From assembly GCA_022822005.1 (NCBI GenBank), contig JAJECO010000023.1:93904-137423 (forward strand): 43,520 bases of DNA, written 5' to 3'. This DNA is from Candidatus Poribacteria bacterium. GTDB taxonomy: Bacteria; Poribacteria; WGA-4E; PCPOR2b. The translations under genes and the position numbers were made by a program. A model generated the notes under the pieces. The model did not search any database. It had not been told where the DNA came from and worked only from the letters and a program-made list of their open reading frames with translations. Positions 315 to 17,406 of the stretch are shown in pieces (positions within the stretch are counted from its first letter, which is position 1; every line of letters begins with the position of its first letter).

Positions 315-1487
315 ATGCGACTAAACCAACTTGTACTGCGTAATTTTCGTAGTTATACTGATTGTGAAATCGATTTCACTGATCGAGTGAACCTGATTGT
401 TGGGGAAAACGCGCAGGGGAAAACAACACTACTAGAAGCAATCTATTTCCTCAGCACGGCAAAATCGCACCGTACCTATCCGGATAATGAATTGATACGG
501 TACAATGAAAGTTGGTTTTATCTCAGAGGGAAGATCGCCGCTGCAAATGGTTCGGATACGAATCCAGAAGCCCAAATAGAACCATTAGACTTGATGACGG
601 TTGAGGTCTCAAACGAGTTGAGTGGCAAGAAGCGTTTCAAGTTCAACGGGGTTCTTCAAAAAAAACTCTCTGAGTGGATTGGTCAGTTCAACGTTGTCTT
701 TTTTTCTCCTGAATCACTAACTTTGGTCAAAGGTGCTCCCGCAGATCGCCGACGTTTCATTGACCTTTTGATTTCCCAGATTGATTCGGTATATTTAAGT
801 TCGCTCCAAAACTACCAATTTGCGCTCAAGCAGCGCAACGAGTTACTGAAACAGATTCGGTCGAAACAGGCGAATCCTGACTTCCTCGATCCATGGGATG
901 ATATACTCATTGCCGAAGGAATCTCTATCAGCCAAACGCGCGTAAGAATGTTTGCCCAATTAAAAGCTTACGTTCAAGCCAAGCACACCGAATTAACCGG
1001 CGACCGCGAGGTCCTTGAATTGAAGTACCAACCGTCGCCAGAAAAAATTGACCGTGCGCCGAAGCAAGAGGCAACGGAACTATTTCGCCAAGGTCTACAA
1101 TCGTCCAGATCTTACGATATTCTTCGCGGGATGACCGCAGTAGGACCACACCGCGACGATTTCAAATTAATATTGGAATCACAGTCTGCTGGGGCGATGT
1201 ATTTTCAGGAAGCAAAGGCTTTTGGATCGCAGGGACAACAACGAACCATCGCTCTAGCCCTTAAGCTCGGAGAATTGGAATTAATACGTGAAACCACAGG
1301 TAAAACCCCTATCGTTCTGTTAGATGACGTTTTCTCAGAATTGGATGGAGAGCGCTCATCGTTTTTATTTAACCTGTTAGGACGATTGAATGCGCAAACA
1401 TTTATCACCTCGACTCGGCAAGAAGCATGGGGACCTGAGCTAGGAGATTGCCGCGTATTTACGGTGCATGATGGACAAGTCAACTGA
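315..1487 (+). CDS. recF: DNA replication and repair protein RecF
   Basis: RecF is an SMC/ABC-like ATPase that loads RecA at gapped DNA with RecO and RecR. The 390-residue product has usual RecF length. It opens MRLNQLVLRNFRSY, the family N-terminus, and has a Walker A motif GENAQGKT at residues 30-37. An ABC signature-like segment (SQGQQRTIALALK) lies near residue 305, and Walker B LLDDVFSELD is at about 335-344. No clear Shine-Dalgarno precedes the ATG, but the N-terminus fits the family exactly. The gene sits between dnaN and gyrB as in many bacteria and its end overlaps the next gene by 20 bases, which points to translational coupling. Confidence 0.97.
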   Translation: MRLNQLVLRNFRSYTDCEIDFTDRVNLIVGENAQGKTTLLEAIYFLSTAKSHRTYPDNELIRYNESWFYLRGKIAAANGSDTNPEAQIEPLDLMTVEVSNELSGKKRFKFNGVLQKKLSEWIGQFNVVFFSPESLTLVKGAPADRRRFIDLLISQIDSVYLSSLQNYQFALKQRNELLKQIRSKQANPDFLDPWDDILIAEGISISQTRVRMFAQLKAYVQAKHTELTGDREVLELKYQPSPEKIDRAPKQEATELFRQGLQSSRSYDILRGMTAVGPHRDDFKLILESQSAGAMYFQEAKAFGSQGQQRTIALALKLGELELIRETTGKTPIVLLDDVFSELDGERSSFLFNLLGRLNAQTFITSTRQEAWGPELGDCRVFTVHDGQVN

Positions 1488-1974
1488 GAAAACAGAACGC
1501 ATCGATCTGCTTCTTGATACACTTATTCGTGATTACGGTTTGGATCACAAAGTTCTTGAAGCGAAAGTCTTTGCCGCTTGGAAAGAAGCTGTCGGTGCAC
1601 TGATTGCTCGCAACACCCAACCGATTTCGCTCGTTGATGGGAAACTGACAGTTTATGCTACCGCTCATGTCTGGGTCAACGAACTGCAAATGTTGAGAAG
1701 CCAAGTGATTCCCAAAATCAATAAAGCCGTCAGTTCTCCCGCTGTGAAAACATTGGAATTTTCTATTAAACCAGTTCATTCGTCAACCTCTCCAAAAAAT
1801 CAACGTTTTCACCGTCCAAAACGTCTAAAAAAATTAGAGACCATTGAATTGGATACGGAGACATTGAAACGCATTGATCAGACCGTAGCATCGGTCGAAG
1901 ACCCAGACCTTAAGGCGCGCTTAAGGCAACTTTTTATCAAGCAGAGCCAACGCGCTCGAATTGAAGATGAATAG
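1468..1974 (+). CDS. dciA: DciA/DUF721-family protein, probable helicase-loading factor
   Basis: This 168-residue protein starts inside the 3' end of recF (two adjacent ATG codons, 1468 and 1471, are possible starts). The N-terminal half has the DUF721 pattern: AWKEAVGALIARNTQPISLVDGKLTVYATAHVW, followed by NELQMLRSQVIPKIN. The C-terminal half is basic and probably disordered (KNQRFHRPKRLKK), then a helical tail. DUF721 proteins include DciA, which loads the replicative helicase in bacteria lacking DnaC or DnaI. DUF721 genes are commonly found between recF and gyrB. The role is inferred from family and context; the gene name is moderately certain. Confidence 0.8.
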   Translation: MMDKSTEKTERIDLLLDTLIRDYGLDHKVLEAKVFAAWKEAVGALIARNTQPISLVDGKLTVYATAHVWVNELQMLRSQVIPKINKAVSSPAVKTLEFSIKPVHSSTSPKNQRFHRPKRLKKLETIELDTETLKRIDQTVASVEDPDLKARLRQLFIKQSQRARIEDE

Positions 1975-1988
1975 TAAACTATTGATAG

Positions 1989-4448
<2,460 letters not shown>

Positions 4449-4449
4449 G

Positions 4450-4938
4450 ATGTCAAATGATGGCGTCAAGTGGCGTGACAGTGGTGTGAAGATAGTCCGT
4501 AGCGATCAGCTTGATATGAATACGCCGCAGACCCCCGGTATGACCCGCGCCGCTGCTATTAATCATGCGACCGCTGGTGCTAACAAACTCTGGGCTGGTA
4601 CGGTGAACATTCAACCGAACGCAAAAACTGGTGCACACCATCATGGCAAATTAGAGAGTGTGATTTATGTCGTGAATGGTCGCGCGCGGATGCGGTGGGG
4701 AGAGCATCTTGAGTTCGTTGCAGAAGCAGGACCTGGCGACTTTATCTACGTACCCCCCTTCGTGCCACACCAAGAAATCAATGCGAGCACGGACGAACCC
4801 CTTTCCTGTGTTTTGGTGCGGAGTGATCAGGAGCCGATTGTTATCAACTTGGATATTGAACCGGTAGAGCCACCGGAGGAAGTCTACTGGATTGACCCGA
4901 TCCACCCTGAACCATCTGAGGTTATACCGAAGGAGTAA
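4450..4938 (+). CDS. Cupin-domain protein between gyrB and gyrA
   Basis: A single-domain cupin of 162 residues. The metal-binding cupin motif 1 is GAHHHGKLESVIYVVNGRARMRWG and motif 2 is GDFIYVPPFVPHQE, giving three clustered histidines, a Glu and a distal His. The ORF can be extended to ATG 4429 inside gyrB, but ATG 4450, one base after the gyrB stop, gives a natural MSNDGVKW start and is preferred. Cupins of this kind are small-molecule binding or enzyme folds; the substrate cannot be told from sequence. It is embedded in the gyrase operon with gyrA 8 bases downstream, so it is probably cotranscribed, but nothing ties it functionally to gyrase. Confidence 0.85.
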   Translation: MSNDGVKWRDSGVKIVRSDQLDMNTPQTPGMTRAAAINHATAGANKLWAGTVNIQPNAKTGAHHHGKLESVIYVVNGRARMRWGEHLEFVAEAGPGDFIYVPPFVPHQEINASTDEPLSCVLVRSDQEPIVINLDIEPVEPPEEVYWIDPIHPEPSEVIPKE

Positions 4939-4946
4939 AGCATAAC

Positions 4947-7427
4947 GTGCTAACACGAAACGATGAAAATACCAATATTGTCACGCGATATATTGAGGAC
5001 GAATTAAGAGAATCCTACCTCACCTACGCGATGAGCGTCAACACCAATCGGGCGATCCCGGACCTAAGGGATGGATTGAAACCCAGTACACGACGCATAC
5101 TCTATGCGATGGGAGAGATGAACCTCACAGCAGGACGCGCCTATGACAAATGTGCCGCTGTTGTTGGTGAGGTCATGAAGAACTTCCATCCACACGGCGA
5201 TGGTCCAATCTACGATACGTTAGTTGGACTGGCTCAAGATTTTGCTATGCGTTACCCTTTGGTCGATGGGCAGGGGAATTTTGGGTCCATTGACGACGAC
5301 CCACCAGGGGCAATGCGTTACACCGAATGCCGTTTGATGCGAATTGCGGATGAAATGTTGGCGGACATCCATAAAAATACCGTTGATTTCCAGCCAAATT
5401 ACAAAGAATCCGTGGACGAACCGAGTGTCCTGCCCGCACGACTACCAAACTTGTTAGTCAACGGGACAACCGGTATTGGGGTTGGATACTTGACTCGAAT
5501 TCCGCCTCACAACCTTGGAGAAATCGTTGATGGATTGATTCTTCTGCTGGATACTCCAGACGCAACCCTTGAACAACTCATGCAACATATTCCCGGTCCC
5601 GATTTTCCAACGGCAGGCGAAATCGTTGGACGCGGTGGTATTCGTGATATATACACCACAGGCAGAGGTTCCATCACCGTTCGAGGAAAAGCCGTTATCG
5701 AACGTACCAAGGGGGGCAAGGAACATATTCTCATCACAGAGATTCCCTACCAAGTTAAGAAAAATCAGCTACTTCAGAAGATGTATGAGTTGGTCGTCAA
5801 TAAGACAATAACGGGGATCAGTGATCTCCGCGATGAATCCGATCAAAACATACGGATTATCGTTGAACTCAAGCGAGGCGAAATCGCACAAGTAGTCCTG
5901 AATCAGATATACAAGCATACGCAGATGCAAACCAACTACAGCGCAATTATGCTATGCCTCGTTGATGGGCTGCCTAAGGTGTTATCTCTCAAAGAGATCA
6001 TGAGCTACTACCTTGACCATCGTCGAGAAGTCATACGTCGTCGGACGCAATACGATCTCGATGTCTGTGAACGCCGCGCACATATTGTGGAAGGGTATCG
6101 CATCGCCTTAAACAACATTGAGGATGTGGTCGATATTGTTCAAACCGCCGAATCTCCGGAAGATGCCCGAAATCTATTAGTAGAAAATTACGATCTTTCA
6201 GAGGTGCAGGCGAGTGAAATCTTAACCATGACGCTCCGCCAATTGACAGGGTTGGAACGGCAGAAAATTAATGATGAATACACCAACCTTCTCGAACGGA
6301 TCGAAGAATTACGAGAAATCCTCAATAGTGAGACACTCATTACCAACATTGTCAAAGAGGAATTGTTAGAACTAAAAGACAAATACAACGATGATCGCAG
6401 AACCCAAATCGTTGATGCAGCGGCTGAATTTGAGATTGAAGACCTCATTGCTGATGAAGAGATGGTTGTCGTTATTACTCATGAAGGTTATATCAAACGA
6501 GTGCCAATCACCACCTATCGTCGTCAGCACCGAGGTGGGGTGGGGGTGATCGGGATGCAAAACAAAGAAGGAGATTATCCTGAACATGTCTTTGTCGCAT
6601 CAGCCCATCAATATATCCTCTTCTTCACCGATCGGGGCAAGTGCTATTGGCTGAAAGTTTTCGAGATTCCAGAGCGCGGGCGTACCTCATCAGGGCAGGC
6701 AATCGTTAATCTCCTGCGGTTAGGAGGCGACGAAAAGATCACCGCATTTGTACCAGTGCGCGAGTTTGATGAGGAACGGTTTGTTTTCATGGCAACCGAG
6801 AAGGGCATTGTCAAAAAATGCAGCCTCGAAGTCTTCAGCAGACCCAATTCTGCTGGCATTATTGCAATCAATCTCGACGAAGGAGACAAACTCATTGGGG
6901 TACAATTGACCGAAGGCGATCACAATATTCTCTTGGTCACACGATCCGGAGGCTCCATCCGTTTCAATGAAGAGGAAGTTCGGAAACTCGGTCGGGCGAC
7001 AATGGGAGTGCGTGGAATCCGCTTGGATGAGGACGATTATGTTATCGGTATGGTCGCTGCGGTTGATGAGAGAGAGACGGTGTTAATCGTCACGGAAAAC
7101 GGTTACGGTAAGCGTACACTATTGGCGAATTATCGGTTGCAGGGACGTGCCGGAAAAGGCGTAATTGCCATTAAAACAAGCACCCGCAACGGACCCGTTG
7201 TCGCAGCGAAAATAGTGTCGGACGATGATGAACTGATTATTGTAAATTCAAACGGCATGCTGACACGGATGGCGGTCAACGATATCCGCACGATTGGGAG
7301 AAACACCCAAGGTGTGCGTTTAATGTCCTTGCGTAAGGAGGAGACTGTCGTTGATGTCGGAAAGATCTCCCCAAATGGTGATGCCGAAGTCCCAGATGAG
7401 GACAAATCCAAGGTTGACGAAAGTTGA
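4947..7427 (+). CDS. gyrA: DNA gyrase subunit A
   Basis: GyrA is the DNA-cleaving subunit of gyrase. The 826-residue protein starts at GTG with an AGGAG site 11 bases upstream. The catalytic tyrosine is Y125 in GAMRYTECR. The winged-helix region reads HPHGDGPIYD (81-90). The C-terminal beta-pinwheel has repeated blades, for example GRATMGVRG and GRNTQGVRL. Two oddities: the residue matching E. coli Ser83 is Gly86, and the GyrA-box is QHRGGVG (about residues 526-532) rather than the usual QRRGGKG type. Next to gyrB, it is more likely gyrase than topoisomerase IV. The C-terminus has an acidic tail (EVPDEDKSKVDES), as in many GyrA proteins. Confidence 0.96.
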   Translation: MLTRNDENTNIVTRYIEDELRESYLTYAMSVNTNRAIPDLRDGLKPSTRRILYAMGEMNLTAGRAYDKCAAVVGEVMKNFHPHGDGPIYDTLVGLAQDFAMRYPLVDGQGNFGSIDDDPPGAMRYTECRLMRIADEMLADIHKNTVDFQPNYKESVDEPSVLPARLPNLLVNGTTGIGVGYLTRIPPHNLGEIVDGLILLLDTPDATLEQLMQHIPGPDFPTAGEIVGRGGIRDIYTTGRGSITVRGKAVIERTKGGKEHILITEIPYQVKKNQLLQKMYELVVNKTITGISDLRDESDQNIRIIVELKRGEIAQVVLNQIYKHTQMQTNYSAIMLCLVDGLPKVLSLKEIMSYYLDHRREVIRRRTQYDLDVCERRAHIVEGYRIALNNIEDVVDIVQTAESPEDARNLLVENYDLSEVQASEILTMTLRQLTGLERQKINDEYTNLLERIEELREILNSETLITNIVKEELLELKDKYNDDRRTQIVDAAAEFEIEDLIADEEMVVVITHEGYIKRVPITTYRRQHRGGVGVIGMQNKEGDYPEHVFVASAHQYILFFTDRGKCYWLKVFEIPERGRTSSGQAIVNLLRLGGDEKITAFVPVREFDEERFVFMATEKGIVKKCSLEVFSRPNSAGIIAINLDEGDKLIGVQLTEGDHNILLVTRSGGSIRFNEEEVRKLGRATMGVRGIRLDEDDYVIGMVAAVDERETVLIVTENGYGKRTLLANYRLQGRAGKGVIAIKTSTRNGPVVAAKIVSDDDELIIVNSNGMLTRMAVNDIRTIGRNTQGVRLMSLRKEETVVDVGKISPNGDAEVPDEDKSKVDES

Positions 7428-12244: not shown

Positions 12245-14134
12245 GTGAATAAGAGTGCCAAAAGTATTGTGGTTTGGTTGATTATGGCATCATTGGTCGC
12301 TTATGCCATGTACCAGTTTCTAAGTCCGGGTAAGGGCAAGGTACATCAGCTGGCGTCATCAGAATTTTATGCCTACCTCCGACAACCAAACAGCAAGGAC
12401 CTATTTGAGGGAAAAATCGAAATCGGTAAAGAGTGGATTAAAGGAAAATTCAGAGACCCGCAACCTATTCTATTAGATGAGATGTCCAGAGGTGGAGGAG
12501 AACCAGTAACGTTTCAGGAATTTCGGACCAGTCGCGACATTTATTCCGAGTATCCACTCCAAGAAAAACTGATTGAGTATCAAATTCCATTTGATAATGA
12601 GCGTTCATCGCCTGTTCCGCAATGGATTGTGATCTTTGGCTCGACAATCTTACCAATCTTGCTTTTCCTGGGGATTATGATCTTCATTTCGAGGCAGATG
12701 CAAGGCACGGGCAACCGAGCGTTATCGTTTGGAAAAAGCCGCGCTCGACTACACTCTGAAAGCGAGTCAAAAATTACCTTTGCCAATGTCGCCGGTTGTG
12801 ATGAGGCGAAAGAAGGGTTGGAAGAGGTAATTCAGTTTCTGAAGGATCCGAAAAAATTTCAGAGATTGGGCGGACGTATCCCAAAAGGGGTCCTGTTAAT
12901 GGGACCGCCGGGCACCGGAAAAACCTTACTCGCGCGTGCTGTCGCCGGGGAGGCCAATGTCCCATTTTACAGTATCAGCGGATCTGATTTTGTTGAAATG
13001 TTTGTAGGAGTTGGCGCGTCGCGCGTCCGGGATCTGTTTGAGACCGGAAAGAAGAATGCGCCGTGCATCATCTTTATTGACGAGCTGGATGCGGTTGGTC
13101 GGCATCGTGGCGCAGGCATCGGTGGCGGCCATGATGAGCGGGAACAGACCCTAAACCAGCTGCTCGTCGAAATGGATGGGTTTGATACCTCTGAAGGCGT
13201 CATTCTCATTGCTGCAACAAACCGTCCCGACGTACTAGACCCTGCGCTCCTCCGTCCAGGGCGCTTTGACCGTCAAATCGTTGTTGACCTCCCTGATGTC
13301 AAGGGCCGTGAAGATATTTTCAAGGTCCATGCGGAGAACATTGAAACAGACCCAGATGTGGACTTAGAGATACTCGCAAAAGCGACACCCTATTTTTCGG
13401 GAGCGGACATCGAAAATATGGTGAACGAGGCCGCCTTACTCGCAGCCAAAGAGGACAAAGATTCCGTTGAAATGGTTTTCTTTGACGAAGCTAAAGATCG
13501 TGTGCTGATGGGACCTGAGCGCCGTAGCCTCATGATCAGTGACGATGATAGACGTGTCACCGCGTACCATGAGGCGGGTCATGCGCTGTTACGACATGTC
13601 ATCCCCGAAAATGATCCGAACTATAAAGCTACTATTATTCCTCGTGGACGATCGCTCGGTGTTTCGGTGGCACTTCCCATCCAAGAACGCCGCAATTTCA
13701 ACAAAAAATATCTACTTGGTAGCATTACCACCGCACTTGGTGGACGCGTCGCCGAGGAACTCATCTTTGGCGAATTGACCACCGGTGCGCAGAACGATTT
13801 TGAGCAGGCAACCGATATCGCCCGCAAAATGGTTACGCAATGGGGGATGAGCGATCTTGGACCACTCTCCTTCGGACGACGTGAAGAGCAGGTCTTTTTA
13901 GGCAAAGAGATTGCACATCACCAAGATTATAGCGACAAGACTGCTATTGAAATTGATGAAGCTGTCCATAGTATTGTTATGGGCTGCTATAATAGAGCGA
14001 GAGACCTCATTGAAACGAATCTTGATGGGCTAAAGAAGCTTGCTGATGAGTTGCTTGAACGCGAAACACTCATCACAGCAGATATTGAAGAGATACTTGG
14101 TCCCCGTCCCCAAACTTCTCCAGCTACATCATGA
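12245..14134 (+). CDS. ftsH: ATP-dependent zinc metalloprotease FtsH
   Basis: FtsH is a membrane-bound AAA+ protease that degrades damaged membrane proteins and some regulators. The 629-residue protein starts at GTG after an AGAGGT site. Two membrane segments flank a periplasmic loop (about residues 9-27 and 126-148). AAA motifs follow: Walker A GPPGTGKT (220-227), Walker [10 protein letters not shown], and a second region of homology [20 protein letters not shown]. The zinc site is HEAGH at 442-446, and the third ligand is an Asp in the [14 protein letters not shown] segment. All catalytic residues are present. Its last four bases overlap the folP start (ATGA), a coupling also common in other bacteria. 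Confidence 0.97.
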
Positions 14135-14964
14135 ATTGCCGAGGAAAGTCCCTTACCTGCGGGGAACGCACTTGGATCATGGGAATTCTCAACGTTACCC
14201 CAGATTCATTCTCCGACGGTGGTCGTTATATCGATGCGAACCGTGCGATTGACTACGCTTATCAGATGATCGAAGATGGCGCAGATATTATCGACATCGG
14301 CGGCGAATCTTCTCGGCCGGGAGCCTTACCCGTCGCTACAGACGAAGAGCTAACCCGTGTGCTACCGGTGATTGACGCGCTTGCAAAGGGGACAGATGCC
14401 TTCATTTCGATTGACACCTGCAAGTCCCCTGTTGCACGCAATGCACTTCAAGCTGGGGCTCATATTGTCAACGATATTACCGCGTTAGGTGATGCAGATA
14501 TGGCGGGAGTCGTTGCGGGGCTGGGGGCTGGGTTGATTCTCATGCACATGAAGGGTGTTCCCCGTACCATGCAGCACTCACCGGTGTATCAAGACCTAAT
14601 CCCTGAAATTCTCACCTTTCTTCAAAACCGGATTGATAAAGCACAAGCGGCGGGAGTTTGTCCTGATCGGATTATGATTGATCCCGGCATTGGATTTGGT
14701 AAAACTGCCGAGCATAACTTGGAGATTTTACGCTCTCTCGATGCGTTTCGGAGCTTGAATAAGCCCATCCTTATTGGCACTTCCAGAAAAGCGTTCATTG
14801 GAAAGATCCTCAATCTGCCCAATCCGGACGATCGTTTGGAAGGCACCGCAGCGACGGTCGCGTGGGCAATTGCCCACGGTGCAGATGTCGTTCGCGTCCA
14901 CGACGTGAAGGCGATATGTAAAATCGCTCAAATGACAGACGCAATTCATCGTCGCACAAATTAA
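14131..14964 (+). CDS. folP: Dihydropteroate synthase
   Basis: FolP condenses para-aminobenzoate with dihydropterin pyrophosphate in folate synthesis. The 277-residue product has the full motif set: GILNVTPDSFSDGG, DIGGESSRPGA, IDTCKSPVARNALQAGAHIVNDI, LMHMKGVPRTMQ, the DPGIGFGKTAEHN segment, the sulfonamide/pABA loop GTSRKAFIG, and the terminal VRVHDV. It starts on the ATGA overlap with ftsH. The length is normal and no sulfonamide-resistance insertion is apparent. Confidence 0.97.
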   Translation: MNCRGKSLTCGERTWIMGILNVTPDSFSDGGRYIDANRAIDYAYQMIEDGADIIDIGGESSRPGALPVATDEELTRVLPVIDALAKGTDAFISIDTCKSPVARNALQAGAHIVNDITALGDADMAGVVAGLGAGLILMHMKGVPRTMQHSPVYQDLIPEILTFLQNRIDKAQAAGVCPDRIMIDPGIGFGKTAEHNLEILRSLDAFRSLNKPILIGTSRKAFIGKILNLPNPDDRLEGTAATVAWAIAHGADVVRVHDVKAICKIAQMTDAIHRRTN

Positions 14965-15118
14965 ATTCCCTCCCGGAAAACTGAAGATTCAATTGCCTAT
15001 ACACAACAAATCAAAAGCGCAACATACAAAAATTGATTATAGCGATCGATATTGACATCGCCTAAGTCAGTAGGATGGGTATCCGTGTGTGCGAATACCC
15101 TCCTTGTGAACGACAAAC
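14965..15118. other. Short intergenic region with a GGGTAT/ATACCC inverted repeat
   Basis: In this 154-base gap GGGTAT (about 15075-15080) pairs with ATACCC (about 15093-15098), with GGA/TCC on the outside and one unpaired base. It may be a transcription stop after folP or an operator for the following gene. No gene is seen. Confidence 0.35.
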
Positions 15119-16276
15119 ATGAATAAACACCAATCGTACTATCTTTTTCACCTCATGTTTTACACAATACCTAACTTCAAAATTGCGTTCATGATGCTGT
15201 TACTGTTCCTTGGCGGGAGTCATCTCGCATCAGCCCAGGCTATTAGCGCAGACTTTCGTGCGTCCGCGGATACATTTCTCAGAAGACTCACTGCAGCAGA
15301 ACATCTGAGGATGGGAGATAACTCCGTCAACTCAATTTCGGGAGCGAATGCCCTTAACAGCAATCCTGCTGGGCTCAGTTTCATTAATAGCAACCATCTT
15401 ATAACGCACACCTCACGATTTCCGCGCACTATTGCCGTCATCGCCAAACTGAACGAAGTCGAACGATACGAGGACCACAGTCAGTACGCACTTCCCGCAT
15501 CGGGACTTGAGTTTGTAAACTACAGTAGGCATTTGGGGACAGCAGGGGCAATTGGATTCAATTTCGCTGTCGGACATGAGGGGCGGTTCAGTCGTGTCAA
15601 CCACCTCGGAAAAGCCACGAACAGTTTCCCGGAAACCGACTTCGCGGTTGGACTGAGCTATGCGGTGAAACCCTTTCGAAGGCTCGCTATCGGTGCCGAT
15701 GCTAAGTGGCTGCGATCTAAAGTGCAGGATACTGAGAGCGAGCGACATATCGGACACGGTTACGCTTATAATTTAGGACTAATCCAACAATTGGGCGAAC
15801 ACCTCCACATCGGTGCTGTGGTTAGAAACTTGAGCAACGGACTGTCATTCACTGATAATTCTATTCCTGATCGCATCCGTCGAGATATTCTTCTGGGCGG
15901 AGCATACCAATTCCATTATAAAAATGTCGATGTTCATCTTGGCTTGGACCTGAACCCACCCTTTGAAGATGGCATCCGAACTAATTTCGGCGGAACTGTT
16001 TGGTATCGCGATTTCATCGGTGGCCGAATCGCTTATCTGCGTCACACCGAAAAACGGTTTGGCTCAGTCCTTAGTCTTGAAACAGGGCAAGTTGACTCCG
16101 AGGATAGATCCTGGAAGGCTGAAGGACTCTCGTTCGGACTTGGATTACAGGTCCGTGGAATTTACGTAAACGCGGCCTATACGCCGCAGCTGCGACCGGT
16201 GGAAAATGACGGAGAGCAAATCCGCGTAGAAACTGGTAAATCTGTATACTCATTTTCGGTTGGACAGCGGTTCTGA
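15119..16276 (+). CDS. PorV/PorQ-like outer-membrane beta-barrel protein
   Basis: 385 residues with an N-terminal hydrophobic export signal (FMMLLLFLGGSHLASAQA, start uncertain between residues 1 and about 24). The mature part begins with the pattern GDNSVNSISGANALNSNPAGLSF, typical of the PorV/PorQ and UPF0164 outer-membrane families (GA-A---NPAGL). Many amphipathic beta strands follow (AIGFNFAVGHEG, LAIGADAKWLRSK, HIGAVVRNLSNG) and the last residues SFSVGQRF end in aromatic Phe, as expected of a barrel. It implies an outer membrane. In Bacteroidetes PorV takes part in type IX secretion; here that role is not supported, since no other T9SS gene is visible. Confidence 0.75.
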   Translation: MNKHQSYYLFHLMFYTIPNFKIAFMMLLLFLGGSHLASAQAISADFRASADTFLRRLTAAEHLRMGDNSVNSISGANALNSNPAGLSFINSNHLITHTSRFPRTIAVIAKLNEVERYEDHSQYALPASGLEFVNYSRHLGTAGAIGFNFAVGHEGRFSRVNHLGKATNSFPETDFAVGLSYAVKPFRRLAIGADAKWLRSKVQDTESERHIGHGYAYNLGLIQQLGEHLHIGAVVRNLSNGLSFTDNSIPDRIRRDILLGGAYQFHYKNVDVHLGLDLNPPFEDGIRTNFGGTVWYRDFIGGRIAYLRHTEKRFGSVLSLETGQVDSEDRSWKAEGLSFGLGLQVRGIYVNAAYTPQLRPVENDGEQIRVETGKSVYSFSVGQRF

Positions 16277-16300: not shown

Positions 16301-16915
16301 ATGTCAGACGAATACAAAACCATTGTTGGAACAGCAGAGTCAAAGCTGGTTGTTAAAAAATCTCGCTTTTTTGGGCTTGCTACATCGATTGATACAATAG
16401 AAGCCTCGAAAAAGTTCCTGACGCTTCTCCAAGAGAAATATCCTAATGCCTCGCACGGCTGCTATGCATACAGTATCGGGTGCGGACACGAAAAGCGAGA
16501 ATATGCCACCGATGCCGGTGAGCCAAGAAACTCCGCAGGTCCCCCAATTTTAGCAGCCGTAACCGCCTCTCAGCTATCAAATGTTATCTGTGTTGTCATC
16601 CGCCACTACGGCGGCATCAATCTTGGTATTGGTGGGCTTATCCGGGCTTACGGTCGATGTGCGAGAGAATGTTTAGGGAGCGCAAAAATTGAAACTCAGA
16701 TTTCTTATAAAACGCTACAGGTACGAATACCTTACGAACAGATCGGTTCGGTCCTTAAACTGTGTAACAGGTTGGGCGGAAGGGTGATAAACATCGAATA
16801 TGGTCAAGATGCAACGGCACATCTGCAAATTCGTCAACGAGAGATTGAAAACTTTCAAGAAAATCTGCGAGGAATCAACTCCGATATTGACGTGATTAAT
16901 TCTATGACTGTATAA
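16301..16915 (+). CDS. YigZ/IMPACT-family protein
   Basis: 204 residues with the UPF0029 N-terminal fold. Signature segments are KKSRFFGLATSI, HGCYAYSIG, the DAGEPRNSAGPPIL motif and CVVIRHYGGINLGIGGLIRAYG. The C-terminal part matches the ferredoxin-like DUF1949 domain. YigZ is related to eukaryotic IMPACT/Yih1, a translation-linked regulator, and the bacterial function is poorly known. The usual gene length is about 200 residues, so it appears complete. No strong ribosome site is seen before the ATG. Confidence 0.92.
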   Translation: MSDEYKTIVGTAESKLVVKKSRFFGLATSIDTIEASKKFLTLLQEKYPNASHGCYAYSIGCGHEKREYATDAGEPRNSAGPPILAAVTASQLSNVICVVIRHYGGINLGIGGLIRAYGRCARECLGSAKIETQISYKTLQVRIPYEQIGSVLKLCNRLGGRVINIEYGQDATAHLQIRQREIENFQENLRGINSDIDVINSMTV

Positions 16916-16971
16916 TCTACCGGTGTTAAATCTTGAATGTGTAGGCATTAAGCGATATGGGAGGGATAATC

Positions 16972-17406
16972 TTGGACGAGGATAAAAAATTTACCACTAC
17001 ACATGAATGGATTGAAGTTGGAGAAAGCGAAGGAATTGTGGGCATTACCGAGCGCATCCAACTTGAGTATGGCGATATTGTCTTTGTTGAACTGCCCGCA
17101 GTTGGCGATGAATATGAACAAGATGAGCCGCTGGGCAGAGTGGAGGTGACTGATGGTAATACTTTTCCTGTCCACGCGCCAGCAACCGGAGAGATTAAAG
17201 AAATCAACGCCACTCTGGAGGAAGATCCTGACTTAATTAACCACTCGCCTGAAGGGGATGGGTGGATCTGTAGAATAAGCATTGAGAGCCCCCGAGAGCT
17301 CGACGTGTTGATGGATATCGACGCGTACAACGACTATGAGGAAGAAGAGCTCGATGACGAGTATATGGATGAACAGGATTTTTACGATGAAGATGAGGCT
17401 TATTGA
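16972..17406 (+). CDS. GcvH-like protein lacking the lipoylation lysine
   Basis: A GcvH (glycine cleavage H protein) fold of about 144 residues. The start is taken at TTG 16972, with GGGAGGG seven bases upstream, giving MDEDKKFTTTHEWIEVG, a normal H-protein N-terminus; an ATG at 16957 lies in the ribosome site itself and is less likely. The core reads GIVGITERIQLEYGDIVFVELPAVGDEY and GEIKEINATLEEDPDLINHSPEGDGWICRI, clearly the H-protein family. However, where H proteins have the lipoyl motif ESVKA, this one reads VEVTDGNTFPVHAP with no lysine at all. It also has a very acidic tail (about 20 Asp/Glu in the last 30 residues). It cannot carry lipoate at the normal place. No gcvT or gcvP is nearby. 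Confidence 0.88.
   Translation: MDEDKKFTTTHEWIEVGESEGIVGITERIQLEYGDIVFVELPAVGDEYEQDEPLGRVEVTDGNTFPVHAPATGEIKEINATLEEDPDLINHSPEGDGWICRISIESPRELDVLMDIDAYNDYEEEELDDEYMDEQDFYDEDEAY

Follow-up and report, generated by a model that had tools for sequence, protein, structure and literature searches.

A Lysine-Less GcvH-Fold Protein with an Acidic Tail Is Kept Across Poribacteria and Probably Has a New Role

Overview

Poribacteria, a sponge-associated bacterial group, possess a paralog of the glycine-cleavage H protein (GcvH) in which the lipoyl-bearing lysine is missing and to which an acidic tail has been added. The protein probably has a new job, because it is retained almost universally, including in some members of the phylum with no sign of a glycine cleavage system. 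The explanation we lean towards is that GcvH was exapted throughout the phylum as a binding or adaptor protein that carries no group. The gene is an old, vertically kept paralog; its product represents a variant within a known fold family and, by function, no GcvH. It provides a clean example of a cofactor-carrier fold that persisted in almost an entire phylum after its cofactor site was lost. In practice, annotation by Pfam as glycine cleavage H protein would wrongly assign glycine cleavage to genomes that apparently lack it.

Gene, Start Codon and Fold

The gene lies in the window, i.e., the whole stretch of 43,520 nucleotides that was analyzed, and its features are collected in Table 1. A longer frame opening with ATG (16957–17406) overlaps the TTG frame. 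The TTG at 16972, chosen in the earlier note, is a better start than this ATG, because it is preceded by GGAGGG at Shine-Dalgarno spacing, and because the relatives in G004 and G005 have no ATG at the corresponding place yet keep both the TTG and the Shine-Dalgarno sequence.

Table 1. Coordinates of the lysine-less gene, its parts, and its upstream surroundings in the window.
Feature	Position	Strand	Remarks
ftsH	12245–14134	+	Upstream in 48/57 loci
folP (dihydropteroate synthase)	14131–14964	+	Upstream in 49/57 loci
PorV/PorQ-like outer membrane protein gene	15119–16276	+	Most constant neighbor, 54/57 loci
yigZ/IMPACT-family gene	16301–16915	+	Usual upstream neighbor, same strand in 39/57 loci
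Promoter-like TTGACG-18-TATAAT	16887–16916	+	At the end of yigZ
GGAGGG Shine-Dalgarno	16960–16965	+	6 nt upstream of TTG; conserved among genus relatives
Lysine-less GcvH-fold paralog	16972–17406	+	TTG start, TGA stop, 144 aa
Former lipoyl hairpin, E58–P70	17143–17181	+	13 residues, against 12 in canonical GcvH
Acidic, aromatic-rich C-terminal tail, residues 120–144	17329–17403	+	AlphaFold2, alignment, dN/dS

The window protein matched Pfam GCV_H (PF01597) with 99.6 bits (E 1.5e-28), passing the gathering cut-off of 22.2. It scored 100.7 against the GcvH equivalog TIGR00527, under the cut-off of 115.85, and 56.4 bits against TIGR03077 (not_gcvH; cut-off 144.05), which by its model name describes a GcvH homolog outside glycine cleavage and which we take to be the chlamydial GcvH-like protein. 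The AlphaFold2 model, built from a 59-row alignment, had a mean pLDDT of 87.5 and a pTM of 0.79, with pLDDT values of 94–96 for the hairpin blocks. Its best structural matches in the PDB were H-proteins, such as 3klr (TMt 0.94, rmsd 1.0); each of the first 22 was either GcvH-L or an H-protein chain, solved singly or within a complex. The H-protein fold that the earlier note had recognized from the sequence was thus confirmed by the Pfam match, the model, and its superposition on 3klr. H11, E12, W13, G24, E58, P70, G73, E74, N79, N90, P93, G97, and W98 are retained, and since these H-protein positions are still conserved, the change from canonical GcvH is local.

Loss of the Lipoyl Site

In GcvH, lipoate is attached to a lysine of the hairpin. 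The hairpin of the window protein, V57–P70, reads VEVTDGNTFPVHAP and contains no lysine; D61 (codon 17152–17154) stands in the canonical lysine column. Checked genome by genome, this column held lysine in 0/76 full-length Poribacteria orthologs versus 27/27 canonical Poribacteria GcvH proteins in a joint alignment; the 77th ortholog is a fragment without the hairpin, so the hairpin counts run over 76. All 71 distinct lysine-less sequences in the joint alignment had D, T, E, N, S, or A there. The hairpin measured 13 residues from E to P in 76/76 orthologs, versus 12 in canonical GcvH. The replacement of the VESVKA-type motif by a segment without any lysine, first read from this single gene, therefore holds in all 76 full-length orthologs, which rules out a sequencing error at the motif.

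A lysine two residues beyond the canonical column occurred once among the 71 distinct sequences (L108) and in one hairpin of the genome-by-genome check (G060). Lysine exceeded 30% of the family only at positions 6 and 101, both outside the hairpin; position 101 is K in 82% of the family and R in the window protein. No invariant nucleophile was found in the hairpin across the family alignment. G62 was almost constant (0.95 weighted), the TDGN segment singled out earlier was conserved in relatives as a DG-type turn (joint alignment), and the turn pattern (DG, EG, TG, NG) looks structural. With the attachment lysine lost and the fold retained, lipoylation at the usual site is ruled out, and the protein would be unable to carry aminomethyl groups.

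Acidic C-Terminal Tail

AlphaFold2 predicted the tail to be helical up to about residue 130 and gave low confidence beyond. The long acidic tail described in the earlier note is a general feature of the family: its net charge was −9 to −18 in 77/77 orthologs, and 71/77 ended in Y or F. Canonical GcvH tails measured 4–11 aa, with charges of −4 to +1. Sequence similarity in the tail was weak between distant families. For the tail alone, dN was 0.015–0.089, and the ratios were 0.016–0.281 in those pairs where dS was computable; purifying selection thus acts on the tail as well. Going by this conservation, the tail with its aromatic positions would most simply be a binding element, and it offers a direct handle for locating the new partner.

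Distribution, Phylogeny and Selection

A search of 84 Poribacteria genomes with a 59-row profile detected a full-length ortholog in 76 and a fragment in one more. The profile found no ortholog in the remaining seven (G003, G007, G016, G032, G045, G067, and G070). In G045 and G070, both of genus g10, the upstream genes are present and the lysine-less gene is absent; this is a true loss, and the gene is thus dispensable. The upstream PorV-like gene is also missing from the assemblies of G003 and G032, the contig of G007 terminates within yigZ, and G016 and G067 are 80% and 61% complete, respectively. Gaps in the assemblies account, or may account, for the absences in G003, G007, G032, and G067.

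The tree was calculated from 92 rows and 111 columns, with the hairpin and tail columns excluded. All 28 lysine-less rows fell on one side of one branch (support 98/95), so that the sampled orthologs form one clade in the phylogeny that the earlier note had proposed. The clade adjoins 14 rows of canonical type from the Oligosphaera phylum (97/93) and lies apart from the canonical Poribacteria rows; with so few columns the inner order of the tree is uncertain. A profile scan of 115 Oligosphaera-phylum genomes gave a best score of 112 bits, and among the matches listed none extended to the tail end. When contigs were scanned with peptide patterns taken from the window protein, which distant forms may escape, matches came from Poribacteria and Lentisphaerae only.

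Over the whole gene, dN/dS was 0.02–0.12 in 10 pairs among five genus members. Selection on the gene is purifying, and these values rule out a pseudogene.

Retention Without Glycine Cleavage

The genome of the window carries a normal gcvT-gcvH-gcvP cluster on another contig (C18), and the GcvH encoded there has ESVKAAFD. The second, normal GcvH that the earlier note had suggested looking for is thus present in the same genome, and a normal gcv operon that uses the lysine-less protein is ruled out, since the C18 cluster has its own lysine-bearing GcvH. The note had also stated that no gcvT or gcvP is adjacent; neither was found anywhere on the contig of the window, with gcvP on C18 only and GCV_T matches on C18, C19, and C42. 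The lysine-less gene is not linked to gcv genes.

gcvP was present in 75/84 Poribacteria genomes and in 70/77 of those bearing an ortholog. The other seven (G058, G059, G060, G061, G066, G068, and G075) had no gcvP match, and the single H-type match in each was the lysine-less protein. GcvT, LipA, and biotinyl/lipoyl domains were scanned in 22 chosen genomes, which included all of these seven except G075. No full-length GCV_T was found in G058–G061, G066, and G068; G066 and G068 had partial matches, which we read as YgfZ-like. LipA over the cut-off was missing in G060, G061, G066, and G068 and present in G058 and G059; it was also missing in G063, G067, and G016. The absence of LipA does not equal the absence of all lipoylation, which may also proceed through LipS1/LipS2 or lipoate ligases. 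No E2-like lipoyl-domain frame of 400–500 aa was found in G061, G066, and G068. The completeness of G061, G068, G066, G059, G058, and G060 was 95, 95, 91, 91, 88, and 76 percent, respectively.

That the gene persists where no glycine cleavage system can be detected shows its function to be separate from glycine cleavage, at least in the gcvP-less lineages. The recruitment to a new role proposed in the earlier note gains support from the six genomes in which the gene is kept without gcvP, full gcvT, or canonical gcvH. In most lineages a tie to glycine cleavage is possible, given gcvP in 70/77.

Two further observations concern the gcv genes. G062 (79% complete) has gcvP, and its only H-type match is the lysine-less form, canonical GcvH not having been found. 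Besides gcvT, further GCV_T-family proteins occur in frames of 980–1000 aa in G000 (on C42), G001, and G003.

Gene Neighborhood

The neighborhood was surveyed at 63 loci, 57 of them with at least 2 kb upstream. The lysine-less gene is usually the last of a conserved ftsH-folP-acpS-PorV-like-yigZ run, which suggests shared transcription. acpS lies upstream on the same strand in 48/57 loci, in most relatives between folP and the PorV-like gene; it is missing from this place (14964–15119) in the window and in the genus relatives. The PorV-like product of the window scored 76.1 bits against NF033709, under the cut-off of 90. None of the genes of the run was found upstream in family f5 (L108, L109), and a partner deduced from the neighbors was rejected, since even the PorV-like gene is absent there. 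The next gene downstream in the window encodes an ABC-F translation factor, which was rejected as a partner because it is downstream in just 6/63 loci. No sirtuin or macrodomain gene was found among six neighbors scanned with Pfam.

The promoter-like site at the end of yigZ could drive the lysine-less gene alone. The same site was read in four other genus orthologs; it lies inside coding sequence, and the scan gave nine promoter-like sites versus 8.5 in shuffles, i.e., no excess. Further upstream, recF, gyrB, and gyrA-like genes were recognized by eye from the translations at 315–7427, an origin-type neighborhood.

Functional Interpretation

As a binding or adaptor protein, the lysine-less form would no longer shuttle any group. 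The H fold would act as a rigid platform, and the E-rich tail, with its Y/F positions and usually a terminal Y/F, would dock on a basic surface of the partner, so that the protein would work as a non-catalytic adaptor or regulator. A more specific version, to which we give slightly less than an even chance, is that GcvH turned into a lipoate-independent adaptor in the common ancestor of Poribacteria, with the acidic-aromatic tail as the working part and a receptor found throughout the phylum.

The protein may instead be an apo-H regulator within the glycine-cleavage/lipoate network, either as an activator of the P-protein or as a decoy for lipoyl synthase or octanoyl transferase. The retained fold with its many conserved residues (HEW, E58, P70, GE, N79, N90, P93, GW) and the frequent presence of gcvP speak for such a role, and it is possible where both occur. 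However, we consider it unlikely overall, as the gene is unlinked to gcv genes and is kept in the six scanned genomes without gcvP, full-length GCV_T, or a canonical H match, four of which also lack LipA over the cut-off and three of which lack the E2-like frame. Less probable still is a nucleic-acid mimic, or a protein associated with the ribosome or RNA polymerase, in which the acidic tail and nucleic acid would compete for the same basic surface. The single-strand-binding protein offers one precedent for an acidic C-terminal tip with an aromatic last residue, the charge of the tail is strongly negative in every ortholog, and an ABC-F gene comes next in the window; yet this gene is rarely downstream elsewhere, and no constant nucleic-acid-related neighbor was found.

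A carrier with another attachment, holding a different group on Asp, Glu, Ser, or Thr of the hairpin or elsewhere, is very improbable. The conserved hairpin shape and the nearly constant G62 would suit it, but the hairpin offers no invariant nucleophile, its turn pattern looks structural, and the two common lysine columns lie outside it. The loss in genus g10 is what a decaying, functionless relic would predict; the low dN/dS values and the open frames and conserved features throughout the phylum refute this in the main, and we give it hardly any credence.

Comparison with Other GcvH Relatives

With GcvH (TIGR00527, PF01597) the protein shares the fold and the conserved HEW, E58, P70, G73-E74, N79, N90, and G97-W98. 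It differs in the missing lipoyl lysine, the extra hairpin residue, the acidic tail, the score below the equivalog cut-off, the lack of linkage to gcv genes, and its retention without gcvP in some genomes. GcvH-L of SirTM/macrodomain operons is lipoylated; in the Poribacteria protein the lysine is absent. LbpA of sHdr sulfur oxidation is a lipoate-binding GcvH paralog recruited to another pathway, in which the lysine is strictly conserved and, in most cases, two cysteines are conserved as well (PMC6067878); the Poribacteria protein lacks the lysine, and the window protein has one cysteine. Simiate/ABITRAM (FAM206A) is a eukaryotic, proposed GcvH descendant that has an acidic/hydrophobic cluster and binds actin, a role outside metabolism (PMC3859600; PMC3986562), the protistan form being about 20% identical to bacterial or archaeal H protein (PMC3859600). 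To the Poribacteria family it would be a parallel in kind. In the portions of the literature returned by our search, a lysine-less bacterial GcvH family was not recognized, which is weak evidence.

Another lysine-less GcvH homolog was found in Oligosphaera ethanolica (G084) and in two Lentisphaerae genomes (G085, G086), with a hairpin region of LHLHLSGRIHHLRSP in two of the three sequences (L151–L153) and LHLANRIHHLRSP in one. All three genomes also hold a lysine-bearing GcvH. These sequences share the lack of a hairpin lysine with the Poribacteria protein, but they have no acidic tail and form a separate long branch, and their loss is probably independent. L176, the sole GcvH homolog of G102 and one of the 14 Oligosphaera-phylum rows adjoining the Poribacteria clade, has the hairpin GSIAADDTYEIYSP without lysine; nested among lysine-bearing rows, it appears to be a recent loss or decay.
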